A DNA stretch of 64,000 nt from Alteraurantiacibacter aquimixticola (GTDB lineage Bacteria > Pseudomonadota > Alphaproteobacteria > Sphingomonadales > Sphingomonadaceae): NCBI RefSeq assembly GCF_004965515.1, contig NZ_SSHH01000001.1, positions 561,280 through 625,279 on the forward strand. The letters are read 5' to 3'. Made by a program: the position numbers and the translations under genes. Shown here piece after piece: positions 33,143 through 64,000 of the stretch. Under the pieces are notes generated by a model that had not been told where the DNA came from, did not search any database, and saw nothing but the letters and a program-made list of their open reading frames with translations. The stretch's first letter is position 1; each line of letters starts with the position of its first letter.

Positions 33143-33995
33143 GCCTTTCGCCGGACTGGCCGCTATTGCCGTGCTGGCGGGTCCGACGCCCCTGTCCGCA
33201 GAGGAAGCGCCAGAGCGCGCCGTGCTGGCCGCGCCTGCGCAGCGGCCGGTGCTGGCGCTGATGGGGACGGTGCCGATCTATTGGGGCGAGGCGGACGGGC
33301 TTTCCGAAGTCATCAATGGCGATGCGCCGAAGCATTGGGCGCGTGCCTTCCTTGAGCAGGATTTCCAGCTCGCCCCGCTCGATTTCCTGACCGCGGAAGC
33401 GCTCTCGTCGCACAAATACCTGCTGATGGCGCAGCCGCGCGCGCTGGCGGCGGAGGAGAATGTCGCGGTCGATCGATGGGTGCGCGATGGCGGCAAGCTG
33501 CTGCTCTTCGCGGATCCGATGATGACCGGGGAATCGCGCTTCTCCATCGGTGATCGCCGAAGGGCGCAGGATGTCGCGCTGCTTTCCCCCATCCTCGCGC
33601 GCTGGGGGCTGGAACTGACTTTCGCGGAGGGCCAGTCCCTCGGCCTCACCACAATCGCCCATGGCGAGGCGCAGCTGCCGGTGAACCTGCCCGGACGCTT
33701 CGTGCCGCATGAGGACCGCTTCGAATGCGTCGTTTCGGCAGGCGGGTTGATTGCCCATTGCGCCATCGAAACGGGCGAGGTGATGCTGGTGGCCGATGCC
33801 GCCATGCTTGACGTCGCAGGCCCCTGGCCCGGGGCGGAAGCGGGGCTGGCGCACCTCTATTCCCACATCTTCGGCCCTTTGCGGGAAAATGCGGGACACG
33901 GTGCCCACGAAGCCACCCATACGCTGCAACAAGGCGGGAATTCGCGCGATTCTGCGCATAGGCACGAACACAGGGGAGTGCGGAGTCCGCCTTAA
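33135..33995 (+). CDS. Exported protein of unknown function, DUF4350/GldG-like
   Basis: The 286-residue product has a signal peptide (about 1-22, ending PLSAEE). A mixed alpha/beta domain follows with MGTVPIYWGEADGLSEV, LSSHKYLLMAQPRALAAEENVAVDRWVRDGGKLLLFADP and LLSPILARWGLEL. The pattern of a strand-rich core with DGGKLLLFADP resembles the GldG/DUF4350-type periplasmic domain, a tentative match. The last 30 residues are His-rich (HGAHEATHTL, AHRHEH). It overlaps the small membrane-protein gene and precedes the dcw cluster. Confidence 0.65.
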   Translation: MIRPFAGLAAIAVLAGPTPLSAEEAPERAVLAAPAQRPVLALMGTVPIYWGEADGLSEVINGDAPKHWARAFLEQDFQLAPLDFLTAEALSSHKYLLMAQPRALAAEENVAVDRWVRDGGKLLLFADPMMTGESRFSIGDRRRAQDVALLSPILARWGLELTFAEGQSLGLTTIAHGEAQLPVNLPGRFVPHEDRFECVVSAGGLIAHCAIETGEVMLVADAAMLDVAGPWPGAEAGLAHLYSHIFGPLRENAGHGAHEATHTLQQGGNSRDSAHRHEHRGVRSPP

Positions 33996-34028
33996 AACTG
34001 GCGTAAAAACAGGAAATTATCAGCATTT

Positions 34029-34071
34029 CCCCATAATTCCCGTGATTTCCCCTTTCCTCCCGCATTGACCC
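34029..34071. promoter_or_regulatory. Candidate MraZ operator: five CCC/GGG triplets at 10-bp spacing
   Basis: CCC occurs at 34029, 34039, 34049, 34059 and 34069, exactly one helical turn apart. On the minus strand this reads as five GGGNN units with five-base spacers. MraZ is known to bind direct TGGGN repeats with five-base spacers in front of its own operon, so this 43-base stretch, about 140-180 bases before mraZ, is the likely operator. The GGG units are on the strand opposite mraZ. Confidence 0.6.
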
Positions 34072-34211
34072 GCGTTACACAGGGTTAATCGGAAGGCCGC
34101 CCGCGTTGCATCCTGATTCTGTGATGGATGGACGGGCCGCGCAGCTGCGCGGCGCGGACGCTGGCGCTTTGCCCGATTTGGTGTGGACCCATCGATCAGG
34201 GACTGGGGGAA

Positions 34212-34712
34212 GTGGCGCAGAAGGCGACGGTATATAGCGGTCAGGGCTTTTCGCTTCGCGGCGAAAAGGATCGCTTCGTCCTGCCTGCCAAACTCCGCAA
34301 TCCTCTGGCCGAAGCAAGCGGCGAACGCACGCTCTGCGTTTCCAAGCATGATCGCTGGCCCTGCCTGACCGGCTTCGGCAAGGACCGCGTCGACACGTTC
34401 GAGGATTTGCTGGACGAGCTGGAGGACAAGGCCATCGCGCGCGGCGACATGGCTTTCGATCGCGAGCTGAAGTCTGCCGCGCTCTACACCTTCACCCCGA
34501 CCAATTTCGACGCCAGCGGGCGCTTCAACCTCAGTTCCACGCTGTTCGAGCTGGGGGACATCGGCGATGCGCTCTATTTCCACGGCATCGGCCAGATTAT
34601 CACCATCTGGAATCCCGAAGTGCTGCTGGCGCAGGGCCCCGAATTCGCGCAGATGCAGGCCTATTGCCGGCAGGAAATGGCTGCGGCCAATGCCAAGGGG
34701 AAGGGCAAGTGA
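34212..34712 (+). CDS. mraZ: Transcriptional regulator MraZ
   Basis: MraZ is an AbrB-like DNA-binding protein that represses the dcw cluster. The 166-residue product has two SpoVT/AbrB-type repeats: [21 protein letters not shown] near the start and [18 protein letters not shown] at about 97-114. It ends in a basic tail, NAKGKGK. GTG 34212 is chosen because it begins just before the first repeat. The purine run GGGGGAA is only two bases away, so the start is not fully certain. An ATG at 34128 would add 28 unlikely residues. The stop overlaps rsmH (GTGA). Confidence 0.88.
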
Positions 34713-35668
34713 CCGCCGCTTCCCCGCATATTCCCGTCCTGCTGGACGAAGTGGTGCGCGAGCTGCGCATCCAGCCCGGCGACGTGGTGATCGACGCCAC
34801 TTTCGGCGCCGGCGGCTATACGCGTGCCTTTCTTGAGGCGGGCGCGACCGTCCACGCCTTCGACCGCGATCCCGATGCGATCGCTGCTGGCCGCCAGTGG
34901 CCCGAAACGCAGGAGGACCCGCCGCGCCTCGTCCTCCATCCGCGCCGCTTTTCCGAGATGGTCGAGGCAATGACCGAGGCTGGCGTCGCGCAGGTGGACG
35001 GGATCGCCATGGATATCGGCGTCTCCTCCATGCAGCTCGACCAGGCCGAGCGCGGCTTTGCGTTCTCCGCCGACGGCCCGCTCGACATGCGCATGGATCG
35101 CCAGCGTCCCAATGCCGCCGATTTCGTCAATGAGGCGGATGAGAAGACGATTGCCGACGTGCTCTACAAATATGGCGAGGAGCGCCAGTCGCGCCGCGTC
35201 GCCCGCGCCATCGTTGCTGCACGCCCGCTGACCACCACCGGGGAGCTCGCTGCCGTGGTGCGCAAGGCGCTCGGCTATCATGCCGGTGCGCCCAAGGATC
35301 CTGCCACGCGCAGCTTCCAGGCCATCCGCATCCATGTGAATGCGGAGCTGGACGAGCTGGAGCAGGGCCTCTCCGGTGCCGAGCAGCTGCTGAGGGAAGG
35401 CGGCCGCCTTGCCGTGGTCAGCTTCCACAGCCTGGAAGATCGCATAGTCAAACAGTTCCTGCGTGATGCCGCCAACGCTAACCCGCGCGGCTCACGTCAC
35501 CTCCCCGAAGCGCACCCTGTCTCTCCACCGCGCTTCGGGGAATTGTCCAAGGCGATCCGCCCCTCGGCGGCGGAAATCGCCCGCAATCCGCGTGCCCGGT
35601 CCTCCACCCTGCGCGCGGCCACTCGCACAGCCGCCCCCGCCCAATCGCAGAAGGAGCACGCCGCATGA
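34709..35668 (+). CDS. rsmH: 16S rRNA (cytosine-1402-N4)-methyltransferase
   Basis: RsmH methylates N4 of C1402 in the decoding centre of 16S rRNA. The 319-residue product has [10 protein letters not shown] at the start, the SAM motif [14 protein letters not shown], and later [25 protein letters not shown] and [13 protein letters not shown], all family landmarks. GTG 34709 overlaps the mraZ stop by four bases and starts just before the HIPVL block. The C-terminal 30 residues are basic and low complexity. It is the second gene of the dcw cluster. Confidence 0.94.
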
Positions 35669-45769: not shown

Positions 45770-47181
45770 AGGGCGTCCCCACGGATATCGGCACGATCCA
45801 TTTCGTCGGCATTGGCGGTATCGGCATGTCCGGCATTGCCGAGGTGATGAAGAATCTCGGCTATAGCGTGCAGGGCTCCGACATTGCCGAGAGCGCGAGC
45901 GTGGAGCGGCTGCGTGCGCGCGGCATTCCCGTTTCCATCGGGCATGACGCGGCAAACCTCGGCGATGCGTCCGTTGTCGTCACCTCCACCGCGGTAAAGC
46001 GCGACAATCCCGAAGTCGCTGCAGCTATCGAGAACCGCATCCCTGTGGTTCGCCGCGCGGAAATGCTGGCAGAGCTGATGCGGCTGAAAAGCACCGTCGC
46101 CGTCGCCGGCACGCACGGCAAGACGACGACGACCAGCATGGTCGCCACGCTGCTCGATGCGGGCGGGGTGGATCCGACCGTGATCAATGGCGGGATCATC
46201 GAAAGTTACGGCTCCAACGCGCGGCTGGGTGACAGCGAGTGGATGGTGGTCGAGGCGGATGAGAGCGACGGCAGCTTCCTGCGGCTCGATGGCACGATCG
46301 CGGTCGTGACTAATATCGATCCCGAACATCTCGACCATTACGGCAGTTTCGATGCGGTGAAGGATGCCTTCCTGCAATTCATCGAGAACGTGCCCTTCTA
46401 TGGCGCTGCAGTGCTGTGCATCGATCATGACGAAGTGCAGAACGTGATCGCCCGTGTGCGCGACCGGCGCGTGATCACCTATGGCTTCTCGCCCCATGCC
46501 GACGTGCGGGCGGAGAATATCTCCAGCGAAGGCGGATCAACCCGCTTCGATGCCGTCAGCCGCGACCGCGACGGGCGGGAAAGCCGCATAGAGAACATCG
46601 TCCTGCCCATGCCCGGTCGCCACAATGTCCAGAATGCGCTCGCCGCAACGGCCGTGGCGCTGGAAATGGGCTGCACCGCCGACACGATCCGCGCCGGTTT
46701 CGCCCGCTTCGGCGGGGTACGCCGTCGCTTTACGCTGGCGGGCGAGGTCGATGGTGTGCGGGTGATCGACGATTATGCGCATCACCCGGTGGAAATCCGC
46801 GCGGTGCTCTCCGCAGCGCGCGAGGCCGCGAAAGGCCGTGTCATCGCGGTGGCGCAGCCGCATCGCTACACGCGGTTGCGCGACCTGATGGAGGAATTCC
46901 AGTCCTGCTTCGCCGATGCGGACATCGTCTATGCCGCGCCGGTCTATCCGGCGGGCGAGCAGCCGATTGCGGGCATCGACAGCGCGGCGCTGGTCGCCGG
47001 GATCAAGGCGCGCGGGCACCGGCAGGCGGCGGAAATCGCCGGGCCGGATGCGCTGGCGCAGGAGCTGGCCGGATTGGTCGAGCCGGGCGACATGGTCGTC
47101 TGCCTCGGCGCGGGCGACATCACCAAATGGGCTGCGGGTCTCGCGTCCTCGATCGAACGGGCGAGGGCGGAAGCGGCATGA
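45766..47181 (+). CDS. murC: UDP-MurNAc--L-alanine ligase MurC
   Basis: MurC starts the peptide stem by adding L-Ala to UDP-MurNAc. The 471-residue product begins [15 protein letters not shown], the MurC N-terminal motif, and has the P-loop GTHGKTTT (115-122), [10 protein letters not shown] and [12 protein letters not shown], the latter specific to MurC. The frame is open upstream, but the ATG at 45766 in an ATGA overlap with murG is the natural start. It overlaps murB the same way. Confidence 0.96.
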
Positions 47182-63891: not shown

Positions 63892-63906
63892 TAACCCAAA
63901 CCACCC

Positions 63907-63941
63907 AAAGAAAAAGCCCGGTCGGACAAGCCGACCGGGCT
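63907..63941 (-). terminator. Intrinsic terminator for a minus-strand gene beyond the right edge
   Basis: A perfect 11-pair stem AGCCCGGTCGG/CCGACCGGGCT (63915-63941) with a five-base loop is followed, on the minus strand, by TTTTTCTTT. It therefore ends transcription coming from the right. A minus-strand frame entering at 64000 stops with TAA at 63982-63980, which would suit a gene end, but only six codons are visible. Confidence 0.82.
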
Positions 63942-64000
63942 GGAAAGTTTTGGGAGAGGATGCCTGAAAGGCCCGTTCCTTATGCGGATGGCTCCCGATT

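Follow-up and report, generated by a model that had tools for sequence, protein, structure and literature searches.

The dcw cluster of Erythrobacter-like Sphingomonadaceae probably has a composite head, made up of an MraZ operator of altered specificity and an undescribed 93-nt three-way-junction RNA, which is found only at mraZ in the genomes searched and would represent a new cis-regulatory family. The operator part, a 10-bp-phased array of CCC triplets (GGG on the minus strand) in Alteraurantiacibacter aquimixticola, is very likely the site through which MraZ controls the dcw cluster, arranged around the dcw promoter. That the mraZ leader is a real structured RNA is concluded with high confidence from the comparison of sequences. 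The window, the whole stretch of DNA analysed, is 64 kb (64,000 nucleotides) long, and its relevant features are collected in Table 1.

Table 1. Positions of the array, promoter, leader and gene features at the head of the dcw cluster in the window; slots are numbered from the leader start and counted in 112 aligned loci.
Feature	Position	Strand	Basis and remarks
GGG unit 1 (CCCC on +)	34029..34032	-	Sequence; 58 bases 5′ of leader start; slot -60 filled in 87/112 relatives
GGG unit 2	34039..34041	-	Sequence; slot -50 filled in 85/112 relatives
GGG unit 3 (CCCC on +)	34049..34052	-	Sequence; CCC one base later in most relatives (-39 in 100/112; -40 in 44/112)
Predicted -35, TTTCCT	34053..34058	+	16-bp spacing to -10, fixed among upstream regions by inspection
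GGG unit 4, just 3′ of predicted -35	34059..34061	-	Sequence; slot -30 filled in 91/112 relatives
GGG unit 5, poorly conserved	34069..34071	-	Sequence; slot -20 filled in 25/112 relatives
Predicted -10, TTACAC (GTTA-like)	34075..34080	+	At -13 of leader start here
Predicted transcription start (about +1)	34087..34088	+	Placed by -10 spacing; coincides with 5′ end of RNA structure
Structured mraZ leader, three-way junction, 93 nt	34087..34179	+	Model R1, 48.1 bits (window sequence part of seed); fold z -2.51; covariation
Leader helix P1, 5′ strand	34087..34092	+	Pairs with 34173-34178; z 8.2 against re-dealt partners
Leader helix P1b, 5′ strand	34093..34107	+	Pairs within 34157-34170; least supported helix
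Leader hairpin P2	34109..34130	+	34109-34113 with 34126-34130; fold and covariation
Leader hairpin P3	34133..34156	+	34133-34142 with 34147-34156; fold and covariation
Purine-rich, Shine-Dalgarno-like stretch	34198..34211	+	Sequence, before GTG start
mraZ (divergent), predicted GTG start	34212..34712	+	NCBIfam MraZ models, best E 1e-10; next to rsmH
rsmH (mraW), second gene of dcw	34709..35668	+	Pfam Methyltransf_5, E 1.5e-90

The phased array and the mraZ gene

On the plus strand CCC begins at 34029, 34039, 34049, 34059 and 34069, in exact 10-bp steps over 34029-34071 (region sequence TTCCCCATAATTCCCGTGATTTCCCCTTTCCTCCCGCATTGACCCGCG), and 140 bases separate the array end at 34071 from the GTG at 34212; a sequence-only reading of this DNA had given both the perfect phasing and a distance of about 140 bases, and both were confirmed. 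No second series of five CCC or GGG triplets occurs in the window at any period from 4 to 21, and 60 windows of 64 kb generated by a first-order Markov model contained no five-run and, at period 10, a mean of 0.017 four-runs. A looser four-triplet pattern matches the whole genome four times, two of the matches being the array itself, and so does its reversed control, so this pattern alone is not special. The narrower TYCCC triple, a pattern tailored to the window array, has a single match in the 3.4-Mb genome (reversed control: 0).

The array is regarded as more than chance because it is conserved. At least three of the five CCC slots at the 10-bp step are filled in 81 of 91 Sphingomonadaceae mraZ upstream regions, against 0/91 within the gene and 1/91 at -800 to -470; at other steps (6 to 15) as many CCC slots are filled in 0 to 8 of the 91. 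The 91 regions comprise 90 of the 113 places found by the protein search together with L005, the 21 weakest and two pieces of G111 having been left out. G-rich repeats on the coding strand are not absent, since GGG fills at least three of five slots there in 15/91 regions at a 10-bp step and in 16/91 at an 11-bp step.

Alignment on the leader start gave the slot counts of Table 1. Of the 112 loci, 49 came from the protein search and 63 from the model search; since the leader model selected them, they do not form a random sample. Second genome copies, L152 and L153 (which score the same as L151), the chance hits L167 and L175, and the leader matches at L032, L033, L046 and L061 lie outside the set. 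The window slots run from -58 to -18, 2 nt nearer the leader start than the commonest positions in relatives. The third unit usually departs from the 10-bp phase by one base, and the fifth appears dispensable because slot -20 is so seldom filled. Phylogenetic footprinting of the mraZ upstream region, proposed as a check by the sequence-only reading, upholds the phased triplets and not the fifth slot.

In 30 loci from 29 other alphaproteobacterial families, taken from the genomes with the highest scores among 101 matched, a coding-strand CCC array, mostly of TCCCAT units, precedes mraZ 23 times and is missing seven times; TTGAC or TTGAA lies in or beside the array in 16 of the 23 (15 TTGAC, one TTGAA). 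Judged from these loci, the CCC orientation seen here is the usual one for Alphaproteobacteria, so the opposite-strand placement of the GGG units, correctly described in the earlier reading, is not peculiar to this site. In a scan of 1000 bases at each of 20 loci, an array was found in one of 13 testable rsmH loci without an adjacent MraZ ORF (L224 left out), many of the loci without MraZ coming from small genomes, where base make-up alone may lower the triplet count. One alphaproteobacterial rsmH locus, L219, has a typical CCCATTGACGCCCA array with no MraZ ORF found adjacent and is perhaps an orphan operator. Six genomes have a divergent MraZ that was missed by the first searches and found by profile, and an array of at least three slots is present in only two of them; L206, which has MraZ, shows three slots in the 1000-base scan, apparently in coding G+C-rich sequence. 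A search for phage relatives of the upstream region returned none at E 1e-5.

The GGG units keep a fixed distance from a -10-like element and flank a predicted -35. A GTTA-like word stands at position -15 relative to the leader start, with 94 matches among 112 relatives, and forms a presumed -10 about 15 bases 3′ of unit 4; by inspection, a presumed -35 (TTYMAT) precedes unit 4 and lies 16 bp from that -10. A sigma-70 consensus scan found no promoter here, and the predicted -35 is weak. The gap between array and GTG is accounted for by the predicted promoter, which adjoins the array, and then by about 125 nt of mostly structured leader. MraZ is a ring-forming AbrB-like regulator. It would bind the GGG units in succession along one helix face, cover about -60 to -28 and exclude RNA polymerase, giving negative feedback over mraZ and the genes behind it; repression by exclusion suits an operator that flanks the predicted -35. 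When the promoter fires, transcription would begin near 34087, and the initial 93 nt of the RNA would fold into the conserved three-way junction.

The ORF at 34212 is best taken as a divergent MraZ because it touches six NCBIfam models, all of them MraZ, precedes rsmH, and has a protein match in 112 of 119 family genomes. Its scores are low: 41.8 bits against a cut-off of 162 for the best NCBIfam model, and 22.4 against 98.35 for TIGR00242, the lowest TIGR00242 score among the 101 matched genomes of a class-wide sample of 115. As none of the 115 sampled alphaproteobacterial genomes reaches the TIGR00242 cut-off, that cut-off is unfit for Alphaproteobacteria. The protein had no match in Pfam and nothing convincing among PDB sequences, and a single-protein search for related loci returned one locus. 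The GTG start was called from homology and the purine-rich stretch 5′ of it; script-picked starts in 49 leader-bearing relatives are GTG in 44, TTG in four and ATG in one. The leader contains an in-frame ATG (34128) from which a 194-aa frame runs into mraZ, and automatic annotation may choose this ATG as the mraZ start.

Behind rsmH, a short ORF without a Pfam match occupies the ftsL position, and a PBP transpeptidase and two Mur ligases (Pfam) follow it; the order mraZ, rsmH, PBP transpeptidase, Mur ligases identifies the dcw cluster. The gene 5′ of the array (33186-33995) gives a sub-threshold ABC_transp_aux match (Pfam) and a weak GldG match.

The mraZ leader RNA

The case for the leader rests on covariation, since single folds of 48 leaders, with a mean z of -1.65 (range -4.8 to +0.8), are weak alone. 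The element is 67% G+C; in relatives it is about 85-107 nt long and mostly has CAUCrGACA at the start and UGUCyG near the end. Alignment A1 (MAFFT, 42 of 46 trimmed leaders forming the seed, with L009, L020, L032 and L046 left out and the end markers picked by eye) has a covariation score of 0.369, compared with 0.210 for shuffled and at most 0.165 for slid alignments. It supports helices P1, P1b, P2 and P3: 77.4% of cells are paired (68.1 shuffled, at most 49.5 slid) and both sides change in 26 of 30 pairs (19.5 shuffled). Alignment A4 contains 64 rows, 63 of them from non-seed genomes, the exception being the reference row L099 from the same genome as L042; it scores 0.383 (0.205 shuffled, at most 0.165 slid), with 79.9% of cells paired (69.2 shuffled, 51.9 slid) and changes on both sides in 29 of 31 pairs (22.2 shuffled). 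Because the model found the A4 rows, their independence is not complete, although MAFFT aligned them without structure; the shuffles keep the relatedness among rows.

Pairing was also tested against re-dealt partners (106 rows, one genome being in twice). P1b, with 60.7% and 61.7% of cells paired in the two alignments, is not established by this test because its z of 3.0 compares with 3.1 for the negative control. A local alternative hairpin between rGACA and a nearby UGUCU, a switch-like rival of P1, reached z 3.8 and is likewise not established, because an impossible-pairing control gave z 3.1 (second control 0.9). Sequestration of the Shine-Dalgarno sequence by the leader was rejected (mean pairing 0.27 over 49 loci, in an inconsistent pattern). 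No terminator-like site, a feature of UpsM-type leaders, was found in 33900-34300, and a five-T run occurs in the downstream part of one of 48 leaders. Our best guess is that the leader acts in cis, in 5′-end protection or protein binding and not in termination or attenuation, because its stem closes on the first predicted nucleotides and there is neither a terminator nor steady Shine-Dalgarno pairing.

Matches to model R1 occur in 112 of 298 Sphingomonadaceae genomes and cover 38 of 91 genera. Across the class the model matches two of 192 genomes, both Sphingomonadaceae, under strict filters by which weak matches are lost. MraZ lies directly 3′ of the leader in 77 of 79 loci checked, the other two matches being inside other reading frames, and the 90 bases 5′ of the leader hold at least two phased CCC slots in all 77 mraZ loci and at least three in 68. 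Rfam release 15 gave no gathering-score match at the window leader or in 18 relatives, and the sub-threshold matches (best E 0.21) are chance-like. Among the open-licence literature matches listed (e.g. the best 6 of 772) there was no structured mraZ leader in Sphingomonadales. An alignment of 15 Sphingomonadaceae loci without an R1 leader (MAFFT and RNAalifold) had essentially no consensus fold (-0.15 kcal/mol).

Three further observations concern RNA in these genomes. In Sphingomonadaceae loci L058-L095, which have no clear R1 match, a GGGGCAC...GUGUCCC closing stem is often visible by eye in the mraZ leader. A second R1 match in the window (46923-47016, plus strand; 22.2 bits, E 0.054) is probably chance. 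At 63900-63979 on the minus strand there is an Rfam suhB/mmgR sRNA match (49.9 bits, above gathering).

On its own the array would be a variant of an established type of site; the leader is the more novel part. If the composite head is real, the leader RNA would give the MraZ feedback loop a further control that acts after initiation, and Rhodobacteraceae would not be the only family with a structured mraZ leader.

Operator bases, the MraZ motif and competing explanations

The operator unit differs between clades in the base that follows CCC. This base is A in 0.90 of 89 units from other Alphaproteobacteria and in 0.04 of 165 units from the leader-bearing clade, where G (0.56) and C (0.33) prevail, so that the clade unit is TCCC with, in most cases, G or C next; leaderless Sphingomonadaceae fall in between (A in 0.29 of 136 units). 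Two DXXXR motifs are the signature of the MraZ family. The Asp of the first is replaced by Gly in 45 of 49 MraZ proteins of the leader clade and kept in two; all 30 MraZ from other alphaproteobacterial families have it, as do 32 of 41 from the intermediate Sphingomonadaceae without a leader. In the window MraZ the second motif is intact (DASGR) and the first is GEKDR, with the Asp lost and the Arg kept. Operator site and MraZ protein thus look co-changed in the leader clade, on sequence comparison, and a causal link between the two is a mere suggestion because the base is already relaxed where the Asp is mostly kept. The clade-wide shift of operator base, paired with the DXXXR change, makes the clade a natural test case for how MraZ recognises DNA.

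Other readings of the array were weighed against an MraZ operator. The G-rich strand, with four or five GGG runs separated by seven bases, might fold into a G-quadruplex and block transcription, and the window does fit G3-N7-G3-N7-G3-N7-G3. Relatives, however, preserve the 10-bp phase and not the run count, four consecutive phased runs being present in only 35 of the 91 regions in which phase was scored; the bases flanking the triplet, which a quadruplex does not need, are also conserved, and seven-base loops are long for such a structure. Excerpts of PMC11796246 place a G-quadruplex 3′ of the mraZ promoter in S. aureus and claim conserved G4 motifs in other species, and these motifs may themselves be MraZ boxes; quadruplex formation as the role of the array is highly improbable. 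A different helix-phased regulator, to which the mraZ neighbourhood would be incidental, is very unlikely. In its favour the window units depart from TGGGN, and papers on NtrYX and CenKR in Alphaproteobacteria mention dcw and mraZ, but many alphaproteobacterial families have the array in front of mraZ, most often with a unit complementary to ATGGGA, and the array is found at just one of the 13 testable loci without an MraZ ORF. The sequence-only reading had gone further and envisaged an extended five-unit site holding more than one MraZ ring, which we consider unlikely: five perfect units do recur in some relatives (e.g. loci L005, L007, L016 and L038), but only 25 of 112 relatives fill the fifth slot and their third unit is usually shifted by one base, so a five-unit, multi-ring site is unsupported. 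Its broader claim, that the array is the probable MraZ operator of the dcw cluster, is supported by the conserved phase, orientation and position before mraZ.

For the leader, the competing proposal is that the sequence is an N-terminal coding extension of mraZ from the ATG at 34128, or that its fold is a chance product of high G+C. The open frame running from 34128 into mraZ speaks for the former, and the G+C content and modest mean fold z speak for the latter. Against a coding role, the distance from leader start to mraZ takes all remainders modulo 3 (26, 13 and 10 of 49 loci), and against a chance fold, the compensatory changes in 26/30 and 29/31 pairs exceed those of the shuffled and slid controls; neither proposal has more than a slim chance of being correct.

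Comparison with known MraZ sites and leaders

The nearest precedent for the leader is UpsM of Rhodobacteraceae, which also belongs to a long structured 5′ UTR before mraZ. As given in excerpts of PMC5089854, UpsM is a 206-nt, Hfq-bound sRNA that ends in a Rho-independent terminator inside a 268-nt mraZ 5′ UTR, the E. coli mraZ 5′ UTR is 38 nt, and the long mraZ leader is called exclusive to Rhodobacteraceae. The window leader, in contrast to UpsM as it is described there, is a 93-nt three-way junction from another family. Since its size and fold differ and no terminator was found, it is not filed as UpsM.

In the broad sense the array has the marks of an MraZ operator, namely 10-bp repeats with a GGG core that lie upstream of mraZ at the head of the dcw cluster and are conserved with mraZ. 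MraZ of E. coli binds direct TGGGN repeats upstream of mraZ, and in E. coli K-12 (L096) the repeats read TGGGA-aattg-TGGGG-caaag-TGGGA-ataag-GGGT. These share with the window the 10-bp-phased direct repeats, the GGG core and the location at mraZ. They are on the coding strand just before the ATG, whereas the window units occupy the other strand, some 140-183 bp ahead of the start and around the predicted -35. The base before GGG is T in the E. coli unit and G or C in four of the five window units, strict TGGG on the minus strand being present in unit 1 only. The identity with the E. coli unit that the sequence-only reading drew on is therefore not supported, and the array is not an E. coli-type MraZ box in the narrow sense, which would have TGGGN units on the coding strand, immediately ahead of the mraZ start codon.

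The site of Burkholderia cenocepacia, as described in extracts of PMC7761207, where MraZ is likewise cited as a ring-forming AbrB-like regulator, consists of four 7-nt repeats with 3-nt spacers on a fragment that was gel-shifted by MraZ. It has the same 10-bp period as the window array but, according to the same extracts, its repeats follow the -10 and overlap the transcription start, whereas those of the window lie around the predicted -35.

The general alphaproteobacterial array (TCCCATTGACnCCCAT...CCCATGCTATCCCA) agrees with the window in strand and phase, and its units are interleaved with promoter-like words. The window clade departs from it in that the A after CCC has mostly become G or C, no unit lies over the -10, and the units reach farther upstream. 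The probable wiring of MraZ in Alphaproteobacteria is one in which the operator units are interleaved with the promoter and not placed behind it.
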